Positions 14,601 through 38,592 of a stretch of 38,592 nucleotides of DNA are shown here, in pieces. Numbering within the stretch: position 1 is the stretch's first letter; each line of letters begins with the position of its first letter. A program made the translations under genes and the position numbers. The notes below the pieces were generated by a model. The model was not told the origin of the DNA, searched no databases, and saw nothing but the letters and a program-made list of their open reading frames with translations. The stretch covers positions 1 through 38,592 of IMG/VR virus record IMGVR_UViG_3300027649_000291; one strand, written 5' to 3'. This DNA comes from a virus.

Positions 14601-15494
14601 CCTGTTGATGGTTATGATGACATTGAAGTAGGAACACAGCCAATAGCCTCAAAGGACATTGTTATTCCTCAGTCTAGCGAAAGCCGAAAGAAGCAAATGT
14701 CTGATTATATGAAGAGCAGACTTGGCTATCTTCCTGCTGGCTTTGACGATATGTGGAGAAAACAAAACCCAGAGTCTACGCTTCAACTTAAGGAAACTCC
14801 GTATGGTGTGTTTTATAGCGACAAGACTGGCGAATGGAAGCAAATGACTATTACTAAGGGCAATCAAATGGAGCCAAAGGATATTGCGGCTAACAAGGCT
14901 GTCCAGTTTGGCAACCTTCAGCCTGACGGAACCTATGAACCTACAGAGTTTGTAAAGGGTTCTGGCATTAAACTTGGCGGCATTGGTACATTTGGTACTG
15001 CGGCGGACGCTTCTAAATTCAGAGTTGACTATCTAAAAAAGATTAAAGCCCTTAGATATGCTGACGAACTCAGAGAAATGAATGAAGTTTTATTCCGTTC
15101 TATGATGCCTTCTATGTGGGGTAAATCTACTACCAAGGTAGCGGCTCTTGTTGCGGCAATGAGACAAGAACTTATTGGCGTAGGCTCTGTGTCTGACTTT
15201 GAACAAAAGTTGCTAAAAGACCTTGTTGCTAATCCTACAGATTTTTGGAGGCTTCAATCTACGGTAAGGGCTACCTATGAAGAACTTATTGAAAAACTTT
15301 CTCGAAGTCTTGTTGAAGACCCTCAAGCCTTAGGACTTGATGTTCAAATGCCAAAAGACAAACAGGCTCAAGTGAAGAATATGAGAGCCATACACCTTGC
15401 TTCAATAGGTCGTAATAAGGCTAAGATGGCTGAATTCCAAAAGCAGGACAAAACTATATACAAATACAGTCAACAATACGACGACCCTAAATAA
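11631..15494 (+). CDS. Internal virion/ejection protein with LysM domain
   Basis: This 1287-residue protein has an N-terminal helical part (1-390), then a Pro/Ala linker with tandem repeats (about 400-520), then a LysM domain at about 531-575 (YTVKKGMTLMTIAQRAG, then IMKANGI, then GGETIIIPPS), which binds peptidoglycan N-acetylglucosamine. A second, acidic linker follows. The rest is helical, with a hydrophobic patch near residue 755-775 (AAAMWIGGGWAKTIG). I see no lytic transglycosylase or peptidase active-site pattern, so LysM may serve anchoring rather than cutting. The stop overlaps the start of the giant gene (TAATG). The gene is plausibly ejected with DNA to span the periplasm; this is inference from order and size. 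Confidence 0.65.
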   Translation: MASQFSKYTGGIAPVQGLYEMGAQIGKNYAAGINSVSETLTKGVDDYYKMVGEAQYADAEFDADGEKYTNLSKALLSEPETAHLAEAITPILETIAKGRKGSHNAKMAALSQVKAQGKTLNETFGYMGLVQGAKERRTFGEAGNLPAEGEETLTKSFGVNPQDTKWSPNLGYNDNVNRVRGNYRKWLDMHKDELASGKFRVMSEEDFIKDWKKKLPFSIQNSDLAPQDKAWAMDILENNNLLENIDIDNDPSMEGLRGQASYFQDWATINPYKGSGTINPDVAPAGTIAQQPAGRQNRYGHPDAIKLRDENDRLIAEAKKLRDRIGTGWFGGNDSVDKPRLAEISTQLSANYKIIESMGGASSSVEINRMEAYRAKVNETWSPYITQIVVDEDDEETAPEPVVVPDKVVEPEAVPAPVPVQRVAPAPVQQAAPAPAPYYPPAPPVVQSDEPEEEPQMSQRLEPMAPPKVVETPKAPTAPAPAKASAPPAPAKASAPSAPAKAPTAPAKAPTAPAKDGESIVYPFPPETGGKYTVKKGMTLMTIAQRAGTTRRAIMKANGINENHDFKGGETIIIPPSIEQNKAVDRDPQSAEPLYPEAQISQEEAESGQQQEEGNLIIDPVTGNMVINTPIDGIIPPDKVAETEGDDEGIDVEAFAPIKLRPVGSQKPTQQPVLPQGVKQSYTKDELDDIKIGARNVEENNNQIQSQQRSIKPAIEYLERIKENVLSGKSNSVDFGTYGAWQKMNPDKATVISVGTQAAAMWIGGGWAKTIGTANKLSKANFASKRVSYARELAEAAFDSQSLKLGRELTDSEIGELTVKAFNKAGLAKHSLNAEDTYKIGKAITVSGVKSAFWETLALAMVGAEDDGFNAPDSASDKDIRKHLIDTLAEIKTVRHTNGGYNQFVPFGLADEEITSGEVKGIKTILDDKIAGLKKIYADNEIQAQYLKVNATPNNLLKLAKALGDDTKAKLTAIEMAKASGLYEDPSADIPVDGYDDIEVGTQPIASKDIVIPQSSESRKKQMSDYMKSRLGYLPAGFDDMWRKQNPESTLQLKETPYGVFYSDKTGEWKQMTITKGNQMEPKDIAANKAVQFGNLQPDGTYEPTEFVKGSGIKLGGIGTFGTAADASKFRVDYLKKIKALRYADELREMNEVLFRSMMPSMWGKSTTKVAALVAAMRQELIGVGSVSDFEQKLLKDLVANPTDFWRLQSTVRATYEELIEKLSRSLVEDPQALGLDVQMPKDKQAQVKNMRAIHLASIGRNKAKMAEFQKQDKTIYKYSQQYDDPK
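13060..13178 (+). repeat. Tandem repeats encoding an Ala/Pro/Lys linker
   Basis: About five imperfect copies of a 21-27 nt unit containing CCTGCTAAGGCT encode repeats of the type APAKASAP / APAKAPT. The repeat sits just before the LysM domain and should form an extended, flexible spacer. Unit number could vary between strains by slippage. Confidence 0.8.
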
Positions 15495-18400
15495 TGGCTG
15501 AAATATTTAAAAACCCTGAACTCATAATTACGCCTTCGGTCAATGCACCGTCAGCGGGAGGAAAGGAATACACAGGCAATAGTGAGATTGATTCATACAT
15601 CAACTCTCTTCCTGAAGACGAGCGTGAAGAGGCTTTGCTTGCTATTACAGCCCCTAAGACTGGTGAGGAAATTCACCTTGAAATGAGTCAAACGGGTGTA
15701 GACCCGAATAAAGAAGACTGGATTAAGATGAACCAGTACTATCGTACAAGAGATACCGACTACCTTAAGGCTATCTCTGAAGGTGCTGGGCATATCTATG
15801 ATGTATTTGGAAGTGCTATTCAGTCTGTTCAGGATGACCCGTCTATGGATACACTAGGGAAAGTAACTCCTAGTGTAATTGAAGGTGCTATACAAAACCT
15901 AAGGGGTCTTTATGGCATTGCCGCTGAATCTGCCGACTCAACAAGTATGCAGTCTAAATTCTTTAACATCCTTAACGGAAGAATGGAAGACAGCGATGAG
16001 GCTTACCGTGTTTTTCTTGACGCTAGAAATTTTGGCAGAGACTCAGAAGCGTATGCAAAAGGAGAAAAGACTACGCTTTTTGATAAACACCATCTAGATA
16101 ACAACTTTGTTCAGGCGGCGGCTCTAGTGGCTGACCCCACAATGTTCATTCCTTTTGGTAAGGCTTTTAGTGTTGCTGGCGGTATGCTTGGTATGTCTGA
16201 ACGCTCTATGGCTCTTGCCGCAAGAACCGCTAACCTTAAGAACAAGATTCTTGGAGGCACTTTAAAATACGGAGTTGGTATGCCTATTGAGTTCATTGGT
16301 AAAGGTACAAGAGTAACCCTTGACCACGCTATCGCCACAGGCGAGAAAGCGTTTGTAGCGGCTACTGGAGTTTCCTCTGAGACATTTAGAGAAGGTATGC
16401 GAATGAGCGGAGTTGGCAGTCTTGGTGCTGGATACTTTGGTCACAGCGTTCCGCTTCTTACTTCCGCCTCTGGTGCTTATGTGGCTGGAACCGCCGCCGC
16501 TGGCGTTGGTGAGGCTGTGTCTGTTATCGGACACCAGATAATGAAAGGTGAAAGAGGTATCGCTTCTTACGCTAAACAGGCATTAATGGACTCCGCTAAA
16601 AACGGCGTTGAACTCTCTGGTCACGCTAAGGCGTTGCTTAGGATAGTAAATGGGTTTGACCCGCTTATTGACTACACAACTACCGTTGCCCAAGGTGCGG
16701 CTACTGGTTCTATGATTGGTGCTGGTCTTGGATACTGGTCTGCTGGCGAAGAAGGAATGGCTCAAGGCATAGGTGCTGGCATAGCCCTAGGTTCTGTTGG
16801 CGGAACTGCTGGTAAGATTCTTGCTGATGTTACTGGAAGAACATACAAACACCGTACACATATTCAGGCTAAACTTGTGCTTGAAGGTATTCGTGATATG
16901 CACCCTGAACAGGCTCAAAGTTGGGAACGGGCTGAAATTTGGGCTAAAACAAGAGGGTTTACACTTGACGGTATTCTTGCCGCCAAGGACACCATCCACC
17001 CCAATACCCACATTGAAGTTCTTACTCAAAGAGAATACGCAAATTACCTTAAAGAAAACGGTCTTAATCCTAACACTTATGACGGAAAGACATTCCTAAA
17101 GGATGGCGACCAGCCACTTAGCCTCAGGTCTTTTGAGCAACAGAACGGCTATGTAATTGAAAATAGGGCTAATGGTACTGTAAAGATTTACCTAAACGCT
17201 GATGCCGCTCCCAGAGCAACAATGGGACACGAAATCTTTCACTCTATTCTCCGCAATAGCGTAATGAAAGATTACTATGCTCAGGCTGTTAAAGAAAAAG
17301 TAATCGGAACTAGAGACGCTGAAGGCAACCTCACAAACAGGGGAACCGTTGACATCAAGGAAGTTAAGCAGATGTTCAGGCGTTATCTTGACGCAGAGTT
17401 CAAAGACCCTGCGGAACGGGCTGACGCTCAGGCTAGACTTGAAATGGCAGAAAAGGCTTACCAAGACAACGGGCAGATGGTTTCAGACCCGTCCCTTGGT
17501 GGTCGTCCTCTGCTTGAACATTTGAGTGAAGAATTTGGTGCTTACTATTTCTCTCACCTAGTGATGGATAAACCAATTGACTGGCTATATCACGGTGGTG
17601 ATTTGCCAGGAATTCGTGGTGTTTTAGATAACGCAGGAATGTTGTATAAAAACTACTGGAGAAGCAGAATGAATAGTACTGCACCAGAGTTTAACTTCAA
17701 CAGAACTTTTATAGATAAAAACGGTGCAGAAAAACTTGTGCCTATTGATGAAGTGTTTGCTCCTGCTACTTATGATATTTTTGGTAATGTTACTGGAAAC
17801 GCAAAGCGTGTAGTCAATCCTGCTATGGATATGTTCTTTAGGGATATGCTTAGGATTGAAAAGAAGGTCAACGAGACTGGGCAATTTGACATATCAAACC
17901 TTAGCAAAGAATCACAACAACGCTTCATTGACTCTGAAGGTCTTGATGGCGTGTTCACAAAAGATATGTCTGGTAACTACAGGCATAACACAGAGGCTCA
18001 GATTAAGCGTGAGAACAAGATAAAGGGTAGGGCTGTGCATAAGTTGCTGATGGCTATCCCTGAGGCTGAGCGTACATTTACGGTAGATGCAGACGGGAAT
18101 ATCCGTGGTCACTTGACCCCCCAGATGCTTGATAACATCGTTAACTCTGGGCATATGACTAGGGCTATGGCTAACAAGATTAGCCTATTCCAGTCTATAG
18201 CCAGAGGCGAAGCCGCTGGCAACATCGTAGACTTTGGTGGCATTGCCAGCACAGGAGAGCGACCAATGAATGTTAATAACCCTACCCGTGTTAGGGGTGA
18301 CAGGGTTCCGTTTAAGTCTAGAACGGCTGTTGTCTTTGGTATTGATACCGTAATCGGAAAGAACGGCGAGTTTCAGTTTAAGGGCAATATGCTTGATTAC

Positions 18401-21400
18401 AAAGTAATTGAGACAAGGGCTAACAACGAATGGAGCAATCTTAGCACACGGTCTTTGTGGAACGGAAACCATACAGAGTATATGGCTGACTTCTACAGGT
18501 ATCTTGAGAACGCATCCAAGGCTCACGACGATGCTACCAGAGTGCCTTCCGCTGACCTGTGGACTGACGGCAAGGGCGGCGAGCGTAGGAATGTCCTGCA
18601 TCAAGTCCTAGGAATGGCTAAGGGTGAGGCTGATACCTTCCTTAACTCTCCTAATGCTGAGATTAACCGTAACGCTTATTCTACTGTGATGTCGTTCAGC
18701 CTGAATCGAATGACCAATCTGCGTCTTCGTAACCAGAGCGTCCCGTTCAAATTTGAAAACGCTTACCGTGACCTTGTGCGTAACTGGTCGCCTAGGGAGA
18801 TGGACAGCGAGATTACACCTAGGGGTAGAATATTTAAACACCCTTCTGGCTTTAGGTTTATCCAAAGAGAAGACGGCAAGACAGATGCCTTTGACGAACT
18901 CAACAAGCGTATTGGAACCTACCAGACGGCTGAAGAGGCTACTGAGGCTGGCAGAAGACACGCCATAAAGAACCCTTCTACTGTTTTGCTCAAGGACAAT
19001 ATGACGGATAACAGCGTCATCAACCGCTCACCCAACGAAGGTGCAGGGGAAGTTCCTGTTCTTGGGGCAAGAGAAGCCGCCGAAGCCAGACGCATTGGAA
19101 ACCTATTTAATACCCGTGAAATGCAGGAGTTTGTTGGAGACAGGAAACTTGTCGCTCAGACTGCCGACGAAGGATTTACGGACTTTATAAACAAATTTAG
19201 AGAAGGTGAAATAAACCAAGAGACAGCCTTAATGATGCTTGAACAAATGTCTAAGGATATGTTTGGTGGTCTTGATAGACAGACTAAAAGAATTAGACTT
19301 CAAGAGTTAAAAGAAAAAGCGGTGGCTAATTTTGAAAAAGAATACCCACGATTTAAAGGCACTATAAAAACTGATGACTATAGAACTGACCACAGCCTTA
19401 CAATAGAAGATTATGCAGAAGTAAAACAACTTGAAAAAGATTTAGCCAAGCCAGCATCAGAAAAACAACGCCATAGTTATTTTACAAGTGAAAACTCTAG
19501 AGACTTTGCAAAAAAAATAAAAGATGCAAAGAAATGGGTAAAAAATGCGGCTTCTACATACAATGACTTTGCTGGATACTTAGCCGAGAATGTTCCTATG
19601 CGTGAGTATTATCAACACGCTGTGTATTCTAAACAGTTTAGAACTGGAGAACCTGTTGTTGTTGTAGGCGTTCACGGGACAAACACATCTCAAGGATTCT
19701 TAAAAGACAAAAAATATAGACCTGTTTCAAGAAATGACAATGTCCCTTTTTCTGAAGGAGAATTGCGTGGGGCTTATTTTGCTTCTTCTGATGCAACTGT
19801 TTTAAACAAAGAGTATCAAGGAGGATACCTTGAAAGTATGGGTTATGAAATTAGCGAAGACACTCATAGACCAGAATCTGGTTCTCCTAACATTGCTAAA
19901 TCTGCAATAAGGTTTGACAATCCGCTTGTTGTAGACGGACAGTTTACAGATATGATGAAACGCACCGAGAAGATTCTTGGTGAAGCAATTGAACAAGGAC
20001 ACGATGGTGTCATTTACATTAATCAATCAGACGGAGGAAACCTTGATGTTACATTTATTGTTCCTGCAAACAAGGCTAATCAGCATCAGCGTATGATTGG
20101 TAGCACCCGTGAAAAGGCTCAGGCTGGTGCGGCGTATGAGCCTCTACCCCGTGGTGAAGGTCGCACAAACAGAACTGTTAACCTTTCCCCCCACGAAGGT
20201 GCAGGAGAACTAAGCACAACTAGATATAAAGTTCCCCGTGAAGAGCCTAGATATCAAGACTCTATTGAATATAACGAACTGTTTGTTTTGCCTTGGAATA
20301 CAAAACCTTGGTTTGACCCTAAACGATTTGATTCACTTGTTAAGGATGGCACAGATTTCTTTACTGTACCAGACCCCAAGCGGCATACACTTTGGCAATA
20401 TTTAGATTATCATCAAAAAGCAAAGACTCCTGTAACCCTTGGAGATGTTCTTAAATTTATAACTGAACAAGGAAAATCTATTCACCCAAATGTTCCTAGG
20501 GATTATCACAGTAAATATGCTGAACTTTTGTTGTCAATTGGTTCTGGATTGCTTCATCTGCCTGTAAATATTACATCTGACGGGCATTGGACTGGCGGAA
20601 GCAAAGGTGCTAATATGGCAACAAAGCACTCATCAAGGAATATTCGTGAGGCATCATTTGCAGAAAGACACGCACATTTTAAGCAACAATATAAAAATGC
20701 TCCAACAGAGGAACTTAAAAGAATTCTACAGGAAATGGACAGGCAAGATAAAGCCAGAAGAAAAGTATTACAAGAAAGTAAGGAAAATAAACCAGAAGAA
20801 ACCGAAGAAGAAGAAGGCGACCAAAATAAAACAAAGAAAGAGCCTGAATACGACCTTCCTGTAATAGAGTTTATTGAAAAGAAAGGTCATCAACAGATGA
20901 ACATTAATCTTGCTCAACTAGTTGACGCACTTTGGGCTTCAAATACTCCAGAAGGGAGCACCTTTGGAAATGACAAGAGGGGTGATTATGGAAGAGAATA
21001 TGTAAGAAGACAGAGAGCAATGGACGGACAGTCGTTTGAAGGAACTGCACTTGAAGAAATTGGACACGCTTTGTTTTCATTTTCTGAACAAGCCGCAGTA
21101 AGGGCTGACCCTGAACTTGGTAAACTAATTCAGAATTTTAACGAAGCAGACCAGACAGGATACAAAGGAGTTGCTTGGAAGCGTGGAGTTGAAAAATTCC
21201 TAGAAGATACTGGTTCAAAAATAAAGGCTGGTCTTATTTTACCAGAACCTGTTATTGCGTGGGCTAGACTTCTTGCACTTCAAAAACACGCAATTGAAAA
21301 TACATTTGTTGTTCACTTTAAGTCTCCACAAAACCCTATTTCTTTATGGGATGCTGACAAGGCTATCATTCTCAATGATTCTGTTAATACGGCAAAAGGA

Positions 21401-22876
21401 AAACCCAAGGCTGGAAGAGGGCATCTTAAAGATGGTTGGAGAGTTGTAGCCCCTTGGGAGTTTGTTAGTTACAAAGGAACAAGAGAGTTTGAGGCTCCAA
21501 TGGACGGAAAGAGACATTACAATCCAACTAGAACCAGCGTATATAGGTTAATGTCAACTGCGGAGTTTAGCATCGCTATGCTTAACGACCCTGATACAAT
21601 TACTAGATGGCTAAGTATGCCGTTTGAGCCTCTTTTGCTTGAAAGATTAGGTCTTGACACAGATAAAGTTAAACAAGGTTTTCCTGAAAGACTTGCAGAC
21701 TTGCACAATCAGATGGCTGAAGGAGTAAAGCAATTTACAGAACACGATACTGGTTTTGTGTATCAACATCTTGAAGAAGTAATAAGAACATTGAGTTCAA
21801 CAAAACCTGATGGTTGGGATTTGCCAAAGCGTGTAAATCTTCAAAACGAAATAGCAAAACCGTCATCTGCAAGACCAGAAAGACCTTCTGGTTTTCTTAC
21901 CAAATACGAAACTGCTTGGGTTAATGATGCTAGGATTAATATGAAAATCTGGTCTGAGGCACACCAAAAAAAGAATCCATTTGAAGGTCTTAGCAATATG
22001 GAGATTTGGGAAATGACAAACAACAATACTATTGAAGGTCTTAGTGAGGCTATGGGTCGTCCTAAATCTGACTGGAAAATTAATGCAAAACCCGTAAAAG
22101 AATCACTCGTAACAGGTGTTGAGGTTGGAGAAATGAATTTAAGAGATGAAAAGACTGGTGAAATAACTGGTAAATTTTCTTTGCTTCGTGGTGGCGAAAC
22201 AAAACAAACTGGCAAAGGAAAAAAGAAAAAAAATTGGGTTTACGACTATAAAGTCGGATGGATAGAGGAAGGTTATGTAACGAAAAACCAGCGTGTTGGA
22301 AGATGGGATAATGAAAAGCATCGCTGGGTTCCTATTGACGAAGAAACTGGCACACAGCCAATTCAAGAAACCCCTGCTGAGCATAAAACAACTATAGATG
22401 AAGAGGGGAATACTGTAATCATTGATGATGAAGGTAATCCTATAATTGACGACGATACAGGCAGACCAGTTATAATAGATGAAGAAGGTCAAACTGTAAT
22501 TATTGACGAAGAAGGAAATAGAATCCCTGTTGAAGTTCCTCCTCCAGTACTTCCCGTACCCCCAGTACCTCCAGTACCTCCTGTACCTCCTGTACGCCCA
22601 GTACGCCCAGTACCTAAAACTCCGCTACCAACTCAACCTGTTCCCCCAGCCCCTATCCCTAAGCGTGACTTCACTCAGGCTGACATCAGGGTGTGGCGTT
22701 CTTGGAAGACTGAAACCTATGGCAATAGTTCTGCCTTAAAGAACGCTCTTGGCTATATCATTATGAGCCTAAACAAAAACTACAGGGTGTATAATCCTCA
22801 AAGGGTTCTGCTTGGAATCTATAAGGACGAGGAAGACGCTAAGCGTAGAGTCCAGCGTGAGGAGCCTAAGAGATGA
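15494..22876 (+). CDS. Giant polyvalent-type ejection protein with zincin and ADP-ribosyltransferase-like domains
   Basis: This 2460-residue protein is probably carried in the virion and delivered with DNA. Residues 1-450 are helical with Gly/Ala-rich hydrophobic stretches (about 315-346 and 400-446), typical of ejection proteins. A zincin follows: GHEIFH at 578-583 (His579, Glu580, His583) with SEEFGAYYF at 678-686 supplying a likely third ligand or helix. Residues about 1385-1545 resemble the ADP-ribosyltransferase of phage polyvalent proteins (HGTN at 1394-1397, GAYFAS at 1426-1431, GHDGVIY at 1502-1508). A second metallopeptidase-like region has EEIGHA at 1854-1859, where the first His is Glu. 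Residues about 2300-2342 are acidic 9-residue repeats, 2345-2380 are Pro-rich, and a small basic domain ends it. Domain calls are by motif; substrates are unknown. Confidence 0.68.
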   Translation: MAEIFKNPELIITPSVNAPSAGGKEYTGNSEIDSYINSLPEDEREEALLAITAPKTGEEIHLEMSQTGVDPNKEDWIKMNQYYRTRDTDYLKAISEGAGHIYDVFGSAIQSVQDDPSMDTLGKVTPSVIEGAIQNLRGLYGIAAESADSTSMQSKFFNILNGRMEDSDEAYRVFLDARNFGRDSEAYAKGEKTTLFDKHHLDNNFVQAAALVADPTMFIPFGKAFSVAGGMLGMSERSMALAARTANLKNKILGGTLKYGVGMPIEFIGKGTRVTLDHAIATGEKAFVAATGVSSETFREGMRMSGVGSLGAGYFGHSVPLLTSASGAYVAGTAAAGVGEAVSVIGHQIMKGERGIASYAKQALMDSAKNGVELSGHAKALLRIVNGFDPLIDYTTTVAQGAATGSMIGAGLGYWSAGEEGMAQGIGAGIALGSVGGTAGKILADVTGRTYKHRTHIQAKLVLEGIRDMHPEQAQSWERAEIWAKTRGFTLDGILAAKDTIHPNTHIEVLTQREYANYLKENGLNPNTYDGKTFLKDGDQPLSLRSFEQQNGYVIENRANGTVKIYLNADAAPRATMGHEIFHSILRNSVMKDYYAQAVKEKVIGTRDAEGNLTNRGTVDIKEVKQMFRRYLDAEFKDPAERADAQARLEMAEKAYQDNGQMVSDPSLGGRPLLEHLSEEFGAYYFSHLVMDKPIDWLYHGGDLPGIRGVLDNAGMLYKNYWRSRMNSTAPEFNFNRTFIDKNGAEKLVPIDEVFAPATYDIFGNVTGNAKRVVNPAMDMFFRDMLRIEKKVNETGQFDISNLSKESQQRFIDSEGLDGVFTKDMSGNYRHNTEAQIKRENKIKGRAVHKLLMAIPEAERTFTVDADGNIRGHLTPQMLDNIVNSGHMTRAMANKISLFQSIARGEAAGNIVDFGGIASTGERPMNVNNPTRVRGDRVPFKSRTAVVFGIDTVIGKNGEFQFKGNMLDYKVIETRANNEWSNLSTRSLWNGNHTEYMADFYRYLENASKAHDDATRVPSADLWTDGKGGERRNVLHQVLGMAKGEADTFLNSPNAEINRNAYSTVMSFSLNRMTNLRLRNQSVPFKFENAYRDLVRNWSPREMDSEITPRGRIFKHPSGFRFIQREDGKTDAFDELNKRIGTYQTAEEATEAGRRHAIKNPSTVLLKDNMTDNSVINRSPNEGAGEVPVLGAREAAEARRIGNLFNTREMQEFVGDRKLVAQTADEGFTDFINKFREGEINQETALMMLEQMSKDMFGGLDRQTKRIRLQELKEKAVANFEKEYPRFKGTIKTDDYRTDHSLTIEDYAEVKQLEKDLAKPASEKQRHSYFTSENSRDFAKKIKDAKKWVKNAASTYNDFAGYLAENVPMREYYQHAVYSKQFRTGEPVVVVGVHGTNTSQGFLKDKKYRPVSRNDNVPFSEGELRGAYFASSDATVLNKEYQGGYLESMGYEISEDTHRPESGSPNIAKSAIRFDNPLVVDGQFTDMMKRTEKILGEAIEQGHDGVIYINQSDGGNLDVTFIVPANKANQHQRMIGSTREKAQAGAAYEPLPRGEGRTNRTVNLSPHEGAGELSTTRYKVPREEPRYQDSIEYNELFVLPWNTKPWFDPKRFDSLVKDGTDFFTVPDPKRHTLWQYLDYHQKAKTPVTLGDVLKFITEQGKSIHPNVPRDYHSKYAELLLSIGSGLLHLPVNITSDGHWTGGSKGANMATKHSSRNIREASFAERHAHFKQQYKNAPTEELKRILQEMDRQDKARRKVLQESKENKPEETEEEEGDQNKTKKEPEYDLPVIEFIEKKGHQQMNINLAQLVDALWASNTPEGSTFGNDKRGDYGREYVRRQRAMDGQSFEGTALEEIGHALFSFSEQAAVRADPELGKLIQNFNEADQTGYKGVAWKRGVEKFLEDTGSKIKAGLILPEPVIAWARLLALQKHAIENTFVVHFKSPQNPISLWDADKAIILNDSVNTAKGKPKAGRGHLKDGWRVVAPWEFVSYKGTREFEAPMDGKRHYNPTRTSVYRLMSTAEFSIAMLNDPDTITRWLSMPFEPLLLERLGLDTDKVKQGFPERLADLHNQMAEGVKQFTEHDTGFVYQHLEEVIRTLSSTKPDGWDLPKRVNLQNEIAKPSSARPERPSGFLTKYETAWVNDARINMKIWSEAHQKKNPFEGLSNMEIWEMTNNNTIEGLSEAMGRPKSDWKINAKPVKESLVTGVEVGEMNLRDEKTGEITGKFSLLRGGETKQTGKGKKKKNWVYDYKVGWIEEGYVTKNQRVGRWDNEKHRWVPIDEETGTQPIQETPAEHKTTIDEEGNTVIIDDEGNPIIDDDTGRPVIIDEEGQTVIIDEEGNRIPVEVPPPVLPVPPVPPVPPVPPVRPVRPVPKTPLPTQPVPPAPIPKRDFTQADIRVWRSWKTETYGNSSALKNALGYIIMSLNKNYRVYNPQRVLLGIYKDEEDAKRRVQREEPKR
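22390..22614 (+). repeat. Acidic 27-nt repeats followed by 9-nt Pro/Val repeats
   Basis: Within the giant gene, five 27-nt units encode variants of VIIDEEGNT (residues about 2300-2342). Immediately after them (22543-22614), tandem 9-nt units of the form CCAGTACCT encode repeated PVPPVP segments with some Arg. Together they form an acidic arm and a stiff polyproline spacer before the C-terminal domain. Confidence 0.8.
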
Positions 22877-33533: not shown

Positions 33534-33548
33534 TTGACAATGTAACAC
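33534..33548 (+). promoter_or_regulatory. Possible promoter ahead of the cassette array
   Basis: TTGACA (33534-33539) and GTAACAC (33542-33548) lie in the 41-nt gap before the first cassette gene, followed by AGGGGAG, a good Shine-Dalgarno match close to the ATG. A -10 box at the usual spacing (GAGATT) is poor, so host sigma recognition is uncertain. Confidence 0.38.
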
Positions 33549-33562
33549 AAACAGGGGAGATT

Positions 33563-34765
33563 ATGTGTCCTATGCACACTAAAATAAAAAAATGTCAGCC
33601 TAATCAGAAAGCACTAATTCACCTATGGGCGAACGGAGCGGACGGCGTAATGACCTGCCCCGCTTCTGTCCATACTTCAAAAATCGGAGAGGATACCTTA
33701 ATCTACTCTTATTCTACCCGTATCGCAATGCGTCGGGAAATTAAGGGTCAGGGAGTCTTCGCCGTCAGCAGTTACGGCTATTCAAAAACGACTAGCAAAC
33801 ATCAGGGGACAATTCAAAACTCAATCCCGCTCCCGTTCAGAATGTCTCATTGGGATATGAATAGCGAATTTGATGCACTCCCGATTGTGGAACAATTCGC
33901 CCTGTTTGAAATGCGTTTCGCAGAGCGTTTGAAAGATAAGCAACTGTCGCTAGTGTTCACGGCTCCCAGCCGCTCCGTCGGATTTAATAACGATTTCTAT
34001 TCCGCACAAATGGAGGCAGTCAGGGAGCAAGTTAAGCACCTTGCAAACCCTAGGGTTAAACGCTTCGGATGCGTTCAAGTTTGGGAAATCTACTGCGAGT
34101 ATCTGAAAGCCGAAATCTTCCGTAAGAAATTCTGCAAGGGTTATCCCAAACAGGGCGTGTCGGAAATCAAAAAGATTATAACGGGTTATCTCGAAAGGTT
34201 GTTTGATAGGAAGGCTAAGCAAGCGGCGGAGATTGAGGAGTATTTCAAAAAGGTTAAGCGTATCGCCGTCCTTTATTCAAAAGACCTATACATTGCGTAT
34301 ACTCAGATGCGGGAAACGATAGTATCGGAAGCGGAATGTTGGAAAAACTTCCTGCCTAGGGATAACCAATTCGATAAGCGTCAAATGATTATCGGCACGA
34401 TTAGGGAAAACATCTGCAAGGTTCAGAAAATTGAATACGGACATTTGATGACTGAATGGATGGAAATGGCGGGGATTGACGCTGGGAGCGATGTGAAAGC
34501 GACAACGCTTCTAAGGTTCAACCCAGATGAAGGGGATATTGAAACCAACAGGGGAGCAAGGTTGCCTGAGACGCTCTGCAAGGCTCTCTGGAAGCGATAC
34601 GGGGATAAAGTGCAGGATACGGAAAAAGGTTTGCCCGTCGAAGGGTTGCCAATCGCCCTAGGTAGTTTCAACTGGACTAAGAGTGAGGCAGGAAACCTGA
34701 CCATCGGTTGCCACATCATCCCAGCGTCAGAAGTGATTAGCCTAGCAATGAAGCGGGACTGGTGA
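33563..34765 (+). CDS. Large unknown protein of cassette 1, with a phage SYxT/TTSKH-type N-terminal domain
   Basis: This 400-residue protein is the largest of the cassette genes. Residues about 17-85 have ALIHLWANGADGV, then LIYSYSTRIA and YSKTTSKHQGTI. The order S-Y-S-T-x-I-A followed by S-K-T-T-S-K-H is a pattern I have seen at the start of unrelated-looking phage proteins with no known role. The rest is helical and basic (RKAKQAAEIEEYFKKVKRI), ending in a beta part with IALGSFNWTKSEAG. The first 13 nt, ATGTGTCCTATGC, are repeated at the start of the 35581 gene; the second ATG (codon 4) could be the true start. It ends 5 nt before terminator 1. Confidence 0.6.
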   Translation: MCPMHTKIKKCQPNQKALIHLWANGADGVMTCPASVHTSKIGEDTLIYSYSTRIAMRREIKGQGVFAVSSYGYSKTTSKHQGTIQNSIPLPFRMSHWDMNSEFDALPIVEQFALFEMRFAERLKDKQLSLVFTAPSRSVGFNNDFYSAQMEAVREQVKHLANPRVKRFGCVQVWEIYCEYLKAEIFRKKFCKGYPKQGVSEIKKIITGYLERLFDRKAKQAAEIEEYFKKVKRIAVLYSKDLYIAYTQMRETIVSEAECWKNFLPRDNQFDKRQMIIGTIRENICKVQKIEYGHLMTEWMEMAGIDAGSDVKATTLLRFNPDEGDIETNRGARLPETLCKALWKRYGDKVQDTEKGLPVEGLPIALGSFNWTKSEAGNLTIGCHIIPASEVISLAMKRDW

Positions 34766-34770
34766 GCAAG

Positions 34771-34798
34771 GGGGAGCCGAAAGGCTCCCCTTTTTTTT
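34771..34798 (+). terminator. Cassette terminator 1
   Basis: Perfect stem GGGGAGCC / GGCTCCCC with GAAA tetraloop (34771-34790) followed by eight T. The stop of cassette 1 is 5 nt upstream. Confidence 0.92.
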
Positions 34799-34800
34799 GC

Positions 34801-34836
34801 CTTGCTTTTGTGTTACTGGTAGGCACATTGAGTTTG
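34801..34836 (+). promoter_or_regulatory. Repeated leader block, copy 1
   Basis: 36 nt starting CTTGCTTTTGTGTTAC and ending AGGCACATTGAGTTTG. It matches the block after terminator 2 at 32 of 36 positions. As it directly follows a terminator and precedes a gene, a promoter or leader function is likely. TTGCTT could serve as a -35 box. Confidence 0.5.
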
Positions 34837-34864
34837 AACCCATAACCAATAACCCAAAATACAT

Positions 34865-35095
34865 ATGAACATCCCTGAGCAATTCAACAAACACTCCGCC
34901 GAAGCCGCCGTCCTGATATGGGCGACGAAAGACGCAGTTCAAGCAATGGAAACCATCTGGAAGCCAATGCAACAGTTTCGGCGGGCGGACATTCTGGAAA
35001 CAGAAGTCATCCGCCTGAGCCTAAAATGTCAGGAATTGGCAGAGCGTTACGCAGAGCAACGCAACGGGTTGAACAAACCCGAAGGAAACAACTGA
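34865..35095 (+). CDS. Small helical protein of cassette 2
   Basis: This 76-residue protein is mainly helical (EAAVLIWATKDAVQAMETIW, then LETEVIRLSLKCQELAERYA) with coiled-coil character, ending NGLNKPEGNN. It starts MNIPEQFNKHS. No family is recognised. It is closed by terminator 2, 6 nt after the stop. The overlapping frame that continues through the terminator is not considered real over this span. Confidence 0.58.
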   Translation: MNIPEQFNKHSAEAAVLIWATKDAVQAMETIWKPMQQFRRADILETEVIRLSLKCQELAERYAEQRNGLNKPEGNN

Positions 35096-35101
35096 CCCAA
35101 A

Positions 35102-35127
35102 GGGGAGCCGAAAGGCTCCCCTTTTTT
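35102..35127 (+). terminator. Cassette terminator 2
   Basis: Same 8-bp stem and GAAA loop as terminator 1 (35102-35121), followed by six T, 6 nt after the stop of cassette 2. Confidence 0.92.
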
Positions 35128-35131
35128 GTGT

Positions 35132-35167
35132 CTTGCTTTTGTGTTACCCTCAGGCACATTGAGTTTG
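35132..35167 (+). promoter_or_regulatory. Repeated leader block, copy 2
   Basis: 36-nt block matching the one after terminator 1 at 32 of 36 positions; the four differences are clustered in the middle (TGGT against CCTC). Here its last base is the G of the GTG start of the next gene. Confidence 0.5.
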
Positions 35168-35514
35168 TGGAACATAACACATCAGGGGAAACTCCCGACG
35201 CTACCTCCCCTAGCGTCACCGCCCCGCAAGCGTCTCTTGCGGATACCATCAAAACCCAGAAACTCGAAAAGAAGTTTTTGGCTCACCTGACCCGAATGGG
35301 AGGCAATCGTAATTATCATTACTATCAGCATCAGGAATTGAACCAGAAGATTGAGTTTGCTAGGGAGCAATACACCCTAGCGATTGCGGCAATTCAGTCA
35401 ATGCGACACGGGAGCGAAGCCGCCGCCGTCGCACACCTTCGGGAAGCAATCCTGAGGATTAAGGGCGAAAGTTTGGCTCAGATTGCGGACAGTTTGCGGA
35501 ACGGAATTAAATAA
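35167..35514 (+). CDS. Unknown protein of cassette 3, GTG start
   Basis: This 115-residue protein begins at GTGGAACAT (MEHNTSGETPDATSPSV), right at the end of the repeated leader block. The frame is open further upstream but only by running back through terminator 2, so the GTG is chosen. Three other cassettes also begin with GTGGAAC. A Thr/Ser/Pro-rich leader of about 25 residues precedes a helical body (TIKTQKLEKKFLAHLTRMGG, ELNQKIEFAREQYTLAIAAI). No family is recognised. Terminator 3 follows 7 nt after the stop. Confidence 0.58.
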   Translation: MEHNTSGETPDATSPSVTAPQASLADTIKTQKLEKKFLAHLTRMGGNRNYHYYQHQELNQKIEFAREQYTLAIAAIQSMRHGSEAAAVAHLREAILRIKGESLAQIADSLRNGIK

Positions 35515-35521
35515 CCTAACT

Positions 35522-35547
35522 GGGGAGCCGAAAGGCTCCCCTTTTTT
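35522..35547 (+). terminator. Cassette terminator 3
   Basis: Same 8-bp stem with GAAA loop (35522-35541), followed by six T, 7 nt after the stop of cassette 3. Confidence 0.92.
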
Positions 35548-35580
35548 GTTATTGTGTTACCCGCCGTTTGCGGTTTGTTT

Positions 35581-36048
35581 ATGTGTCCTATGCCAACCAT
35601 AACAAAAGCAGAAAAAATGAAAGCGTTCCTAACAAACAAAACGATGTCCGAAGATTACGCAAAAAATCTCTGGTATATCGTGAGCGGAGCCGTCGAAGGT
35701 GGACTGGGGGGATACAGTTGGGGGTTCCCCGCAAACCCTGAGAGCAAAGGTTACAGGGATTACAATAAAGCGGGAGAAAAGGACGGTATCCCTTACGCTT
35801 CCTTGATGATTGAAATCAAGTGTGCGGATTTGGAGCAAGGGGAAGACCTGACGAAGTATCAGGATGTCACGGCGGTTTGGCTTCATAATAAACTGGTGAA
35901 GTTTGTGAGCGATGAGAAGCAACCTGATTGGCTCCGCAAAATGTATGCAGAAATGTTAGTGACTCAGGAACACCCGACGGAAGCGGACGGCGTAAGCGAT
36001 GACGCTTTCTTTCAATACTGCTTCCTAGGGGAAATCACATTCGGATAA
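35581..36048 (+). CDS. Unknown protein of cassette 4
   Basis: This 155-residue protein starts ATGTGTCCTATGC, the same 13 nt as cassette 1; the second ATG (codon 4, before PTITKAEKM) could be the true start. A GTG at 35554 is in frame but lies in the leader. The body has LWYIVSGAVEGGLGGYSWG (about residues 30-48), then PYASLMIEIKCADLEQGED, and an acidic end. There are no known catalytic motifs. Terminator 4 begins 10 nt after the stop. Confidence 0.58.
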   Translation: MCPMPTITKAEKMKAFLTNKTMSEDYAKNLWYIVSGAVEGGLGGYSWGFPANPESKGYRDYNKAGEKDGIPYASLMIEIKCADLEQGEDLTKYQDVTAVWLHNKLVKFVSDEKQPDWLRKMYAEMLVTQEHPTEADGVSDDAFFQYCFLGEITFG

Positions 36049-36057
36049 CGAACGCAA

Positions 36058-36083
36058 GGGGAGCCGAAAGGCTCCCCTTTTTT
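36058..36083 (+). terminator. Cassette terminator 4
   Basis: Same 8-bp stem with GAAA loop (36058-36077), followed by six T, 9 nt of spacer after the stop of cassette 4. Confidence 0.92.
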
Positions 36084-36116
36084 GTGTTTGTGTTTTTTAC
36101 TTACGGCTCCTAGTTT

Positions 36117-36380
36117 ATGGATGTGGAACCCGAAACCCCCCCCGCAGAAAACCTGAGCGTCTCTGCCGCTCAAACGCCCCAGCCGTCCGCTGGGAAACAC
36201 AAAACAAAGGGAGCCTTTGGTAAGGCTAAGGCAATGAAGCGTCTTAGCGACTACTTCCCTGACCATCGCCGCAAGGTTCAGCGTCAGCACACCTTTGCCG
36301 CCAATAGTGTGCCGAAGGAAACTGAACCCGATATGCTGGGGGAGCATATCGCAACGGAGCAAGGCTGGGAGAAAAAGTAA
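36117..36380 (+). CDS. Small basic/Pro-rich protein of cassette 5
   Basis: This 87-residue protein starts at ATG (MDVEPETPPAENLSV); the GTG two codons later gives the GTGGAACC start shared with cassettes 3, 7 and 8 and may be the real one. The leader (residues 1-30) is Pro/Ser/Ala-rich, then a basic part (KHKTKGAFGKAKAMKRLSDY, DHRRKVQRQH) that could bind nucleic acid. The first 45 nt resemble those of cassette 8. Terminator 5 follows after 8 nt. Confidence 0.55.
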   Translation: MDVEPETPPAENLSVSAAQTPQPSAGKHKTKGAFGKAKAMKRLSDYFPDHRRKVQRQHTFAANSVPKETEPDMLGEHIATEQGWEKK

Positions 36381-36388
36381 CCCTGACT

Positions 36389-36416
36389 GGGGGAGCCGAA
36401 AGGCTCCCCCTTTTTT
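36389..36416 (+). terminator. Cassette terminator 5
   Basis: Stem extended to 9 bp, GGGGGAGCC / GGCTCCCCC, with GAAA loop (36389-36410), then six T. The extra G:C pair appears on both sides, a compensated change. Confidence 0.92.
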
Positions 36417-36481
36417 GTGCCTGTTTTGTATTTGCGTAATAGAATTTTACTAACTACGCTCTGTTTGCCGCTAGGCACAAA

Positions 36482-36883
36482 ATGAACCAACCAAAAAAGC
36501 CTGAGAGTCTTAAACTCTCCGCCCATCAGCAGGGCGTAAAATTCCTGCTGGGGGAAACGAAAGTGAAACCGTCCGACTTCCCGCAAGTGGAATGGACTCG
36601 AATCGACGGGAATGTTTTCAGCCTCTTCGCTACGGCGACGAACGCTTGGAAACGGAAAGACCTGTCGGTTGCGAACCGAGTGCGGAGTCTGGCAAGTGTA
36701 GCAATGTCGGGCGAGTGTAAGGACGCTCCCGACTTCGCCGCCGCCCTGCGAACGGAAGCGGATAACGGTGCGGATGGTTACTACATCCTGCTCGGTATCC
36801 TGACGGAAATCTGCCCGCACGATAGCGACGGCGACGACGAAGAGGAAGACGAAGAGGAAGACGACGACGACTGCGACGAATAG
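36482..36883 (+). CDS. Protein of cassette 6 with extreme acidic C-terminal tail
   Basis: This 133-residue protein starts MNQPKKPESLKLSAHQQGV. It has a helical, fairly ordinary body (AWKRKDLSVANRVRSLASVA, then DFAAALRTEADNGADGYYIL) and ends in about 21 residues that are nearly all Asp and Glu (after ICPHDSD), interrupted by one Cys. Acidic tails of this type occur in DNA-mimic and histone-binding-like proteins; phage DNA mimics often block host restriction or repair enzymes. This role is only a suggestion. The leader ends TAGGCACAAA, sharing AGGCACA with the repeated leader block. Terminator 6 follows after 8 nt. Confidence 0.58.
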   Translation: MNQPKKPESLKLSAHQQGVKFLLGETKVKPSDFPQVEWTRIDGNVFSLFATATNAWKRKDLSVANRVRSLASVAMSGECKDAPDFAAALRTEADNGADGYYILLGILTEICPHDSDGDDEEEDEEEDDDDCDE

Positions 36884-36891
36884 CAAACCTA

Positions 36892-36918
36892 GGGGAGCCG
36901 AAAGGCTCCCCTTTTTTT
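36892..36918 (+). terminator. Cassette terminator 6
   Basis: 8-bp stem with GAAA loop (36892-36911), then seven T, 8 nt after the stop of cassette 6. Confidence 0.92.
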
Positions 36919-36957
36919 GCGTTGCTCTGTATCCAGCCTGACGGTTACACTAACGGC

Positions 36958-37629
36958 GTGGAACCTAACACAACTGGGGATAACAATCAGGAAGCCTCCC
37001 CCTTCCTGCCGCTTGCGACGGCTTCGCAAAAAACGAAGGGCGAACGGGAGGAATTGTTTTTCAAGTGGTTCCGTTCCGAGCGAGTGAAACCGAATAACAC
37101 CCTAGCGGGTTTGCAGGATGCTCTGGATGCTCTGGATAAGCACGAAGAGGAAGTCAGGAAGTTTCTGCACGACGAAGAGGAACAGGCACTAGCGGATTGG
37201 ACTGCGACGGCGGAAAGTTATCGGGATGAATTCCTGATGCCGCTCAGGATGCGGAAAGGGGATAGTGAAGTGAACTTCGTGAATTTTTACCGAACGGAGT
37301 TAGTCGAATACAGTCCAGCCGAGGGAGGTTGTTTTTACCACCGTCGCACCTGTTTGGCTTCCTTCCCCGTGAGTTACTTCAACGCCGTGAAATTCTACGG
37401 AGAGTTTACCTGCCCTGAAAATGCCGAAGATAAAACTCTGGAAGCGGCGAAGGAATACGGACGGGAGAAATTCGGACTCACCTTTCAGGGCGACAGGGTT
37501 GACTGGGGCGACGGCGACACTAGGGAGGTTAGGGGATTCTCCTCTGCACGACCTGAGGCTGACGGCGAAGCGATGCTGGAACGCTTCCCCTTCCAGTCGG
37601 CGACGATGACAGTCCCGCACTACGAATGA
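36958..37629 (+). CDS. Unknown protein of cassette 7, GTG start
   Basis: This 223-residue protein begins GTGGAACCTAACAC (MEPNTTGDNNQEASPF), like cassettes 3, 5 and 8. A TTG 36 nt earlier is in frame but sits three nt after the T-run of terminator 6 and is rejected. The leader (about 25 residues) ends in KTKG, as does that of cassette 5. The body has a helical part (LAGLQDALDALDKHEEEVRK, FLHDEEEQALADWTATAESY) and a Cys/aromatic part (GGCFYHRRTCLASFPVSYFN). No family is recognised. GC content is higher than in the late genes. Terminator 7 follows after 7 nt. Confidence 0.58.
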   Translation: MEPNTTGDNNQEASPFLPLATASQKTKGEREELFFKWFRSERVKPNNTLAGLQDALDALDKHEEEVRKFLHDEEEQALADWTATAESYRDEFLMPLRMRKGDSEVNFVNFYRTELVEYSPAEGGCFYHRRTCLASFPVSYFNAVKFYGEFTCPENAEDKTLEAAKEYGREKFGLTFQGDRVDWGDGDTREVRGFSSARPEADGEAMLERFPFQSATMTVPHYE

Positions 37630-37636
37630 CCTAACT

Positions 37637-37663
37637 GGGGGAGCCGAAAGGCTCCCCCTTTTT
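37637..37663 (+). terminator. Cassette terminator 7
   Basis: 9-bp stem GGGGGAGCC / GGCTCCCCC with GAAA loop (37637-37658), then five T. Confidence 0.92.
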
Positions 37664-37725
37664 CGTCGTTAGAAAATCCTGACAAGATTCTTGCGGCGTT
37701 GCCGCCGTCGTGATTGAATCGAGTC

Positions 37726-38220
37726 GTGGAACCGAAACCCAAGGGAAAGAAACTGAGCGCCCCCCCCGCTCAATCGCCGACGGCGAATCCGTCGCTAAAT
37801 CAAATCACGAAACTCCGCAACCTCCACGCCGCAATCACGGCTAACTGGTTCGCCCAGCAGGAAGTCGAACGGACTGCGGAAGCAATCCTCACGAAGACGG
37901 ACGGCGGTATCCTGATGGACAATCCCAATCGGGAAGTGTGGGAGGATTACTTCTACTCCTGCCGAGACCATCGCCGCCACCTGCGGGGAATGTTAGACCA
38001 ACTGGACTGCACCATCTGGCTGACGGAGAAAACGATGACGGCTAGTGAGGATACATTGCAGGACTGGTATGCGAACGCTACGGCGACGACTAGTTGCGGC
38101 GGACACAAGAAGGGCGAGAGGAATGAGCGGCTGGCAAAAGCCTACCTGTCAGAATTGGAGGGACGGGGACTGCGACCCGACGGACGCAAGGGGTCATTCA
38201 ACGGCGACGGAGCGTCCTGA
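37726..38220 (+). CDS. Unknown protein of cassette 8, GTG start
   Basis: This 164-residue protein begins GTGGAACCGAAACCC (MEPKPKGKKLSAPPAQ). A TTG four codons earlier is possible. A basic/Pro leader of about 25 residues resembles cassette 5 at the nucleotide level. The body is helical (LNQITKLRNLHAAITANWFA, WEDYFYSCRDHRRHLRGMLD, QLDCTIWLTEKTM), with His/Arg-rich stretches and a polar tail. No family is recognised. Terminator 8, a loop variant, follows after 14 nt; no gene is seen beyond it. Confidence 0.55.
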   Translation: MEPKPKGKKLSAPPAQSPTANPSLNQITKLRNLHAAITANWFAQQEVERTAEAILTKTDGGILMDNPNREVWEDYFYSCRDHRRHLRGMLDQLDCTIWLTEKTMTASEDTLQDWYANATATTSCGGHKKGERNERLAKAYLSELEGRGLRPDGRKGSFNGDGAS

Positions 38221-38234
38221 CCAGTCACACCCTA

Positions 38235-38260
38235 GGGGAGCCGCAAGGCTCCCCTTTTTT
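38235..38260 (+). terminator. Cassette terminator 8, GCAA-loop variant
   Basis: Same stem GGGGAGCC / GGCTCCCC (38235-38242 and 38247-38254) but loop GCAA, followed by six T. GCAA is also a GNRA tetraloop, so the single change keeps the loop class. Confidence 0.92.
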
Positions 38261-38531
38261 GTGCCTGCATCCCAGCCGTCAGGCTGACGGCCTGAGCCGT
38301 CCTGAGCCTGAGGCCTGAGGCCTGAGCCGCCCAGCCGCCCACCCCCTCCCCTGAGCCGTCCTGAGCATCGTCGGCGGACGCTCTGCCTGACGCTCCCAGC
38401 CGCCCTGCCGCCCTGCCCCCAGCCTGACCCGTCCAGCCTGTCCCAGCCTCCCTGAGAGCCTCCCAGCCTACCCCCTTGCCTGACCCGTCCCAGCACCCCC
38501 TTTACCCCCGTAAAAGGGCGGAGCCTAGCCG
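38261..38531. other. C-rich low-complexity non-coding region
   Basis: No believable gene lies here. The plus strand is strongly C-biased and built from recurring short words: CCTGAG about eight times, CAGCC seven times and CCTGACCCGTCC-type words. Near its end CCCTTTAC (38498-38505) pairs with GTAAAAGGG (38510-38518) with one bulge. Open frames in this stretch encode only biased low-complexity peptides. Confidence 0.6.

Positions 38532-38592
<61 letters not shown>

Follow-up and report, generated by a model that had tools for sequence, protein, structure and literature searches.

Small phage genes that appear to be monocistronic have been described in the early region of Bacillus phage 0305phi8-36, for which SPO1 provides the precedent, and rapid expression after injection has been proposed as the reason (PMC2147016). 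In cluster K mycobacteriophages, the translation starts of a subset of genes are associated with genome-specific repeats and inverted repeats (SAS and ESAS), including an upstream 13-base pair (bp) sequence, GGGATAGGAGCCC, and 17-bp inverted repeats (PMC3203893). Halovirus HF2 has repeated intergenic sequences with promoter activity, whose position is conserved in the virus genus (PMC8707807), and the gene 32 mRNA of phages T4 and RB69 has a pseudoknot near the translation start that keeps its shape despite divergent sequence (PMC535899). Here we analysed the IMG/VR virus record IMGVR_UViG_3300027649_000291, the whole 38,592-base stretch of which, from an uncultured bacteriophage, is called the window below, and in particular an array of eight consecutive genes that are each closed by a hairpin of the same kind. 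We favour, with a probability of about 0.62, the reading that this array is not a conventional operon but a tandem series of units of one gene each, which are transcribed separately and have an expression module in common.

As far as can be judged from sequence alone, the layout of the array fits the row of small one-gene units of the SPO1-type region in 0305phi8-36, although the available portions of that report mention neither leaderless starts nor terminators that are identical and genome-specific, nor a shared pseudoknot within coding sequence (PMC2147016). The array resembles the SAS/ESAS system in its genome-specific repeats at gene starts, but its element lies within the gene, beyond the start codon, and forms a covarying pseudoknot, and each unit has a terminator. 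HF2 differs in being an archaeal virus with very long reported transcripts, and the available portions of its report describe neither a per-gene terminator nor a pseudoknot (PMC8707807). The T4/RB69 element serves a single gene, is located upstream of the Shine-Dalgarno site and is bound by gp32 (PMC535899), whereas the one described here occurs in many genes, downstream of the start codon. Within the portions of the reports available, none of the 0305phi8-36/SPO1, SAS/ESAS and T4/RB69 gene 32 systems combines the features of the array, and neither this pseudoknot nor an array of this kind is described in the open-access literature that we searched.

We identified eight perfect GGGGAGCC-GNAA-GGCTCCCC hairpins, all on the + strand between positions 34771 and 38254 and each closing one of eight genes, as the first-pass annotation of this DNA had claimed. 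The pattern GGGGAGCCN{3,12}GGCTCCCC has eight matches in the window, all on the + strand, against an expectation of 0 in shuffles. All eight copies begin 5-14 nucleotides (nt) after a stop codon and are followed directly by a run of five to eight T (T5-T8); a G+C-rich hairpin with a direct T-run just downstream of a gene is the form of an intrinsic terminator, and the predicted hairpin energies are -16 to -24 kcal/mol. The extra G:C pair noticed earlier in two copies is present at 36389 and 37637, giving 9-bp stems, as is the single GCAA loop, in the copy at 38235. When the entire window was scanned for terminators under stricter settings, the same eight were returned on the + strand and 0 on the - strand, so the rest of the record is without a comparable terminator.

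At least four related phages carry the same array, each with its own hairpin sequence, which is uniform in most copies of a genome. These are a close relative in IMG/VR, IMGVR_UViG_3300009158_002133 (G001; eight copies, DNA about 88% identical), 3300010158_000006 (G002; six copies of GAGGGGGCC-GAAA-GGCTCCCTC and a last copy with the GGGGAGCC core of the window), 3300021519_001029 (G003; eight copies around GGGAGCC-NNAA-GGCTCCC) and 3300021963_000308 (G009; seven copies of CCCCCA-GC(A/G)A-TGGGGG; contig L242 repeats this array), and contig G016 has two copies at its edge. All copies in G001, G003 and G009 and the six internal copies in G002 have the same intrinsic terminator form. The GGGGAGCC core of the last hairpin in the window is retained also in the last copies of G002 and G003. 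In most other capsid-family relatives, a whole-genome terminator scan found few or no such hairpins and no array.

In 25 of the 36 cassettes of the array genomes, an H-type pseudoknot can form at about +19 to +51 of the gene, an element that the first-pass annotation had missed together with the promoter and leaderless-start module described below. One helix (S2) is a hairpin of 5-7 bp, the loop of which pairs with 3-6 nt upstream (S1, usually GGGGA with TCCCC). In an alignment of eight sequences of equal geometry (A5), 97.9% of the cells pair, compared with 78.6% after shuffling, both sides have changed in all seven S2 pairs, and the covariation score is 0.598 against 0.174 +/- 0.048, a value that 0 of 500 shuffles reached. 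In five sequences that are one nt longer (A6), 100% of the cells pair (84.0% after shuffling), with changes on both sides in 3/5 S1 pairs and 4/7 S2 pairs. Other cassettes have S1 variants in which pairing is kept (GCAGA:TCTGC, GGGC:GCCC, GGTG:CACC and GGCT:AGCC), and the G001 ortholog of gene 8, whose own element in the window is weaker, has the full GGGGA:TCCCC form. When the arms were re-dealt among 21 cassettes, the observed pairing was reached in 0 of 20,000 trials for each helix. Compensatory change supports both of the interleaved helices that define an H-type pseudoknot. The 3' strand of S1 adjoins that of S2 (a 0-nt loop), and the three-dimensional form of the predicted fold is provisional.

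A position-restricted search placed 25 of the 36 array starts above threshold, whereas dinucleotide shuffles passed it in 8 of 3,600 cases and other open reading frame (ORF) starts in 4 of 227. A stricter form, applied to about 45,800 ORF starts from all the loci analysed, was found 61 times in array genomes (overlapping loci recounted) and 22 times elsewhere, several of the latter being one conserved coding sequence. A loose scan of whole genomes, without anchoring to start codons, was not selective, and Rfam gave 0 matches in the window, with nothing in the array near a gathering threshold, T4 gene 32 and preQ1 types included.

Comparison of the window with G001 indicates what is being conserved. 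In the first 51 nt of the pseudoknot cassettes, there are 4 synonymous changes in 50.7 sites, compared with 99.5 in 342.3 sites in the rest (p=4e-4), nonsynonymous changes are not reduced there (p=0.66), and the leaders of cassettes without the pseudoknot show no drop in synonymous changes. It is therefore the nucleic acid that is constrained. Moreover, synonymous recoding kept the pseudoknot in only 92 of 1500 trials (6%). Since cassettes differ in their stem sequences and yet retain the pairing, an RNA structure is far likelier than a DNA operator, and we rejected a common sequence-specific DNA operator. The first-pass annotation described the gene products as unrelated and without known function; we likewise found no function, but several share an N-terminal leader peptide (for example, VEPNTTGDN and VEHNTSGET), a peptide that the conserved RNA structure itself encodes.

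The spacers between hairpin and next start are near constant in length (median 47 nt, interquartile range 45-49), and only 1 of 34 contains a Shine-Dalgarno-like sequence. Of the 34 spacers, 20 carry a sigma70-like promoter pair whose -10 is close to the start, compared with 7.4 +/- 2.3 (maximum 17) in shuffles, and likewise 20 carry TAnnnT 4-11 nt before the start, compared with 6.6 +/- 2.2. The usual distance from the end of the -10 to the start codon is 6 or 9 nt, and with the array genomes pooled this spacing (~6-9 nt), together with the lack of a Shine-Dalgarno sequence, is that of leaderless genes. As the -10 is so near the start, leaderless or nearly leaderless mRNAs are predicted. From +4 to +18, the A/C content is 83% in array genes, compared with 62% in other ORFs (p=5e-11). 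The positions of these features are listed in Table 1, where relatives and promoter spacing place the likely starts of genes 1 and 4 at the second ATG and those of genes 3, 5, 7 and 8 at GTG codons.

Table 1. Cassette genes and control elements of the array in the window (aa, amino acids)
Feature	Positions	Strand	Remarks
Cassette gene 1	33572..34765	+	397 aa; orthologs in G001, G002, G003
Cassette gene 2	34865..35095	+	76 aa; this phage only; duplicated hairpin and promoter segment on both sides
Cassette gene 3	35167..35514	+	115 aa; GTG start; ortholog group A
Cassette gene 4	35590..36048	+	152 aa; ortholog group B (57% identical in G002); no pseudoknot
Cassette gene 5	36123..36380	+	85 aa; GTG start; ortholog group D; cassette C loss joint at its GTGGAACC start
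Cassette gene 6	36482..36883	+	133 aa; acidic C-terminal tail; ortholog group E
Cassette gene 7	36958..37629	+	223 aa; ortholog group F
Cassette gene 8	37726..38220	+	164 aa; ortholog group H
Terminator hairpin 1	34771..34790	+	GAAA loop, T8
Terminator hairpin 2	35102..35121	+	pattern match
Terminator hairpin 3	35522..35541	+	pattern match
Terminator hairpin 4	36058..36077	+	pattern match
Terminator hairpin 5	36389..36410	+	9-bp stem
Terminator hairpin 6	36892..36911	+	pattern match
Terminator hairpin 7	37637..37658	+	9-bp stem
Terminator hairpin 8	38235..38254	+	GCAA loop; end of array
Gene 3 5' pseudoknot	35185..35217	+	GGGGA:TCCCC (S1), GACGCTA:TAGCGTC (S2)
Gene 5 5' pseudoknot	36144..36172	+	GCAGA:TCTGC (S1), TGAGCG:CGCTCA (S2)
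Gene 7 5' pseudoknot	36976..37008	+	GGGGA:TCCCC (S1), CAGGAAG:CTTCCTG (S2)
Gene 8 weaker 5' pseudoknot	37743..37772	+	GGG:CCC; TGAGCG:CGCTCA
Gene 6 simple leader hairpin	36503..36519	+	no pseudoknot
Gene 1 candidate promoter	33534..33571	+	TTGACA at 33534-33539; consensus match only
Gene 5 candidate promoter	36088..36116	+	TTGTGT-17-TAGTTT; ends 6 nt before GTG 36123
Gene 7 candidate promoter	36922..36951	+	TTGCTC-18-TACACT; ends 6 nt before GTG 36958

The anatomy of the units is well supported by these comparisons, and from it we infer how they would function. Each unit would be transcribed individually from a sigma70-like promoter that begins inside the T-run of the preceding terminator or directly behind it, and its mRNA would start no more than about 3 nt from the start codon, followed by a CA-rich stretch (+4 to +18), the pseudoknot in most units, the gene body and a private GNRA-loop terminator. 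CA repeats after the start have been reported to enhance leaderless translation, and structures around the start codon have been described as inhibitory to it (PMC9031893). The pseudoknot, at the expected front edge of the initiating ribosome, probably acts at translation initiation, which it would set or regulate, either in cis or through a common binder, possibly as an operator for a phage RNA-binding protein. The genes might constitute an early, host-takeover-like set that needs fast and independent expression by the host RNA polymerase, and the common module sequences could provide the short homologies for gain, loss and homogenisation of units, plausibly by Erf/RecE-type recombination. 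More tentatively, at somewhat below even odds, the element could represent a new class of cis-acting phage RNA, namely, a pseudoknot that meets the front of the ribosome during initiation on leaderless monocistronic mRNAs. It would be a movable start module shared by many unrelated genes, and its common partner, either the ribosome or a phage protein, would control these genes jointly.

If this reading is right, the array would illustrate a phage strategy in which unrelated small genes are equipped with a standard kit, made up of a promoter for leaderless transcripts, a CA-rich start, a structured RNA at the 5' end of the coding sequence and a private terminator. It would also offer a testable case of a structure just downstream of the start codon acting on leaderless translation, a covarying RNA signature for locating such genes in uncultured phages, and an example of terminator homogenisation within one phage genome.

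Several points weigh against this reading. Gene 4 and its orthologs, as well as genes 2 and 6 of the window, have no pseudoknot, so the element is not obligatory. The limits of the pseudoknot search were chosen after viewing the sequences, with the controls run under the same limits, and the cassettes of one genome are not independent of each other, and only a small number of separate phage lineages, about four, is represented. The spacers of genes 2, 6 and 8 are longer (74, 72 and 68 nt, respectively), and the strict promoter pattern is found in only 2 of the 7 internal spacers of the window, so the case for promoters depends on pooling all genomes. Overall, the phage seems poor in Shine-Dalgarno sequences (3 of 22 + strand starts checked outside the array, at 2287-33174), so their lack is not special to the array; this suggests that the host initiates translation largely without them. 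Finally, no array protein has a known function, and the early or host-takeover role is drawn by analogy only.

The gene content of the arrays bears on how the units arose. Genes 1, 3, 4, 5, 6, 7 and 8 of the window correspond to the ortholog groups c1, A, B, D, E, F and H, which are collinear. The order in both G001 and G003 is c1-A-B-C-D-E-F-H, although in G003 the gene occupying the D position shows no recognisable relationship; G009 retains a recognisable A...E-F-H, and in G002, where the array is on the - strand, F precedes E, so that the order of genes 6 and 7 is swapped relative to the window, G001 and G003. Since cassette C is present in G001, G002 and G003 and absent from the window, it was most simply lost in the latter. 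In the alignment with G001, the hairpin of B and the upstream promoter of C are kept, near-identical up to TGGATGTGGAACC, and the window sequence switches at GTGGAACC to the body of the D gene. Gene 2 is flanked by two near-identical copies of a hairpin and promoter segment that is present once in G001. We thus observed one gain, one loss and one swap in total; two joints could be placed to the single base, and one of these is at a start codon and not at a hairpin. The orthologs are only 30-58% identical across phages, yet order and content are mostly conserved, and the ratio of nonsynonymous to synonymous substitution rates (dN/dS) between the window and G001 is 0.09-0.26 for every shared cassette, so the proteins are under purifying selection. 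In the five cassette groups common to G000, G002 and G003, hairpin arms are more similar within a genome (0.944) than between orthologs of different genomes (0.844; permutation p=0.0007), and all six internal copies of G002 have the same A-to-G change, which gives a G-U pair in the RNA.

These results bear on the earlier suggestion of an exchangeable accessory locus, and on the alternative that the hairpins and spacer repeats are mainly recombination sites for an integron-like shuffling of cassettes by general phage recombination. Gain, loss and swap with repeats at the joints, the homogenisation of hairpins within genomes, and the Erf-like and RecE/exonuclease VIII-like proteins that the phage does encode, as had been noted, all speak for exchange, and gene conversion through this annealing system is a plausible cause of the homogenisation. 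However, the comparison of relatives that the first-pass annotation had proposed revealed mostly the same order, with just three rearrangements among phages with strongly diverged orthologs, under purifying selection and with one joint at a start codon region, so that the exchangeable-locus view is only partly supported; moreover, exchange leaves the selection on RNA pairing unexplained. An integron cassette array would carry an integrase, for which no search was made here, and attC-like sites where its cassettes end; the hairpins of our array are in the terminator position, with T-runs. Cassette shuffling occurs but is secondary, and as the principal explanation it is rather unlikely. An ordinary moron array, in which unrelated genes each arrived with their own promoter and terminator, agrees with the one gene per promoter and terminator, with the small uncharacterised proteins and with gene 2, which resembles a recent gain. 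The terminators of the array are clear in this respect, and the promoters less so, as the counts above indicate. Morons need not share sequence. Here, in contrast, eight genes stand in tandem, the terminator, spacer and 5' RNA are common, genome-specific and homogenised, and most genes are old, orthologous and collinear; this explanation is already disfavoured by the common module sequences and the conserved synteny, and we consider it improbable.

Other roles for the RNA elements can be weighed against the favoured one, in which the pseudoknot acts on initiation and the hairpin on termination. The least improbable, though still unlikely, is a common operator, by which one phage or host protein would bind the pseudoknot and post-transcriptionally repress or activate all the genes. 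The same fold with varying sequence on many non-homologous genes would suit recognition by shape, and T4/RB69 gene 32 offers the precedent of an mRNA pseudoknot bound with relaxed sequence needs (PMC535899), but the binder is hypothetical here and the T4 element is upstream of the ribosome site, not inside the coding region. About as improbable as the moron array is a role in mRNA stability, where the 5' pseudoknot and 3' GNRA hairpin would cap short mRNAs against exonucleases: both elements are structured, near the predicted mRNA ends and kept by compensatory or homogenising change, and the terminator hairpins are stable by their predicted energies. On the other hand, termination needs a 3' hairpin anyway, the pseudoknot begins about 18 nt inside the message, where ribosomes would open it, and several units are without it. 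Very improbable is a protein tag, in which the leader peptide would be kept for targeting, packaging or processing, the RNA pairing being incidental. A similar leader, E-x-N-x-x-G-x-x-x-D-S-x-S-P, does occur on several otherwise unrelated proteins, but the paired changes alter amino acids, synonymous recoding destroyed the structure in 94% of trials, and we rejected the tag because synonymous, and not nonsynonymous, changes are suppressed.

Searches with the array proteins returned little. Pfam, PHROGs and NCBIfam gave no function, the weak match of gene 1 to PHROG 7247 (E=2e-13) being to a PHROG without assigned function, and none of the eight proteins matched in PADLOC, as members of a defence island would. 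Genes 1 and 7 had no match in INPHARED, the structure model of the gene 7 family (predicted local distance difference test score, pLDDT, 71) had no significant match in PDB or BFVD, and that of the gene 4 family (pLDDT 40) was unusable. In IMG/VR, searches with genes 1, 4 and 7 recovered the same few phages and one distant relative of gene 7, and an alignment search with gene 6 returned no relatives. Compared with isolates, the capsid had distant matches only, the best at 32% identity, plus one distant Azospirillum contig. The distant gene 7 relative, in G005, G017 and G018, is a single gene without terminators (e.g., G005 20238-20606, - strand) at the equivalent place, between a tRNA cluster and a gene whose product we take to resemble the antirestriction protein ArdC.

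The hairpin alone was rejected as a diagnostic, because many unrelated viral contigs contain the exact 20-mer, in most cases only once (with a T-rich tail in about half); the array, and not the single hairpin, is therefore the distinctive feature. The 84-kb record IMGVR_UViG_3300042521_003909 has three GGGGAGCC-GCAA-GGCTCCCC hairpins near its end, spaced 400-616 nt and without an immediate T-run (L041 11710-12750 / L210 12222-13262), as well as six copies of CTTTTTCCCCCGC, and is possibly an independent per-gene hairpin array. On the - strand of a 171-kb contig (L029), two copies, at positions 4145 and 6529 of the reverse complement, are both followed by a TTGACA-like and a -10-like sequence and a close start codon.

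Elsewhere in the window, an ORF of 2,460 aa lies among the structural genes (15494-22876). The sequence after the last hairpin (38260-38592) is C-rich and of low complexity, ending in a long C run whose length may be an assembly artefact. Contig L083 is 99.85% identical to the left end of the window over 13.4 kb, and in L083 and L084 the region to the left of the window begins with similar C-rich sequence, followed by four tRNA genes; for this reason the C-rich stretch probably joins both ends of the genome.

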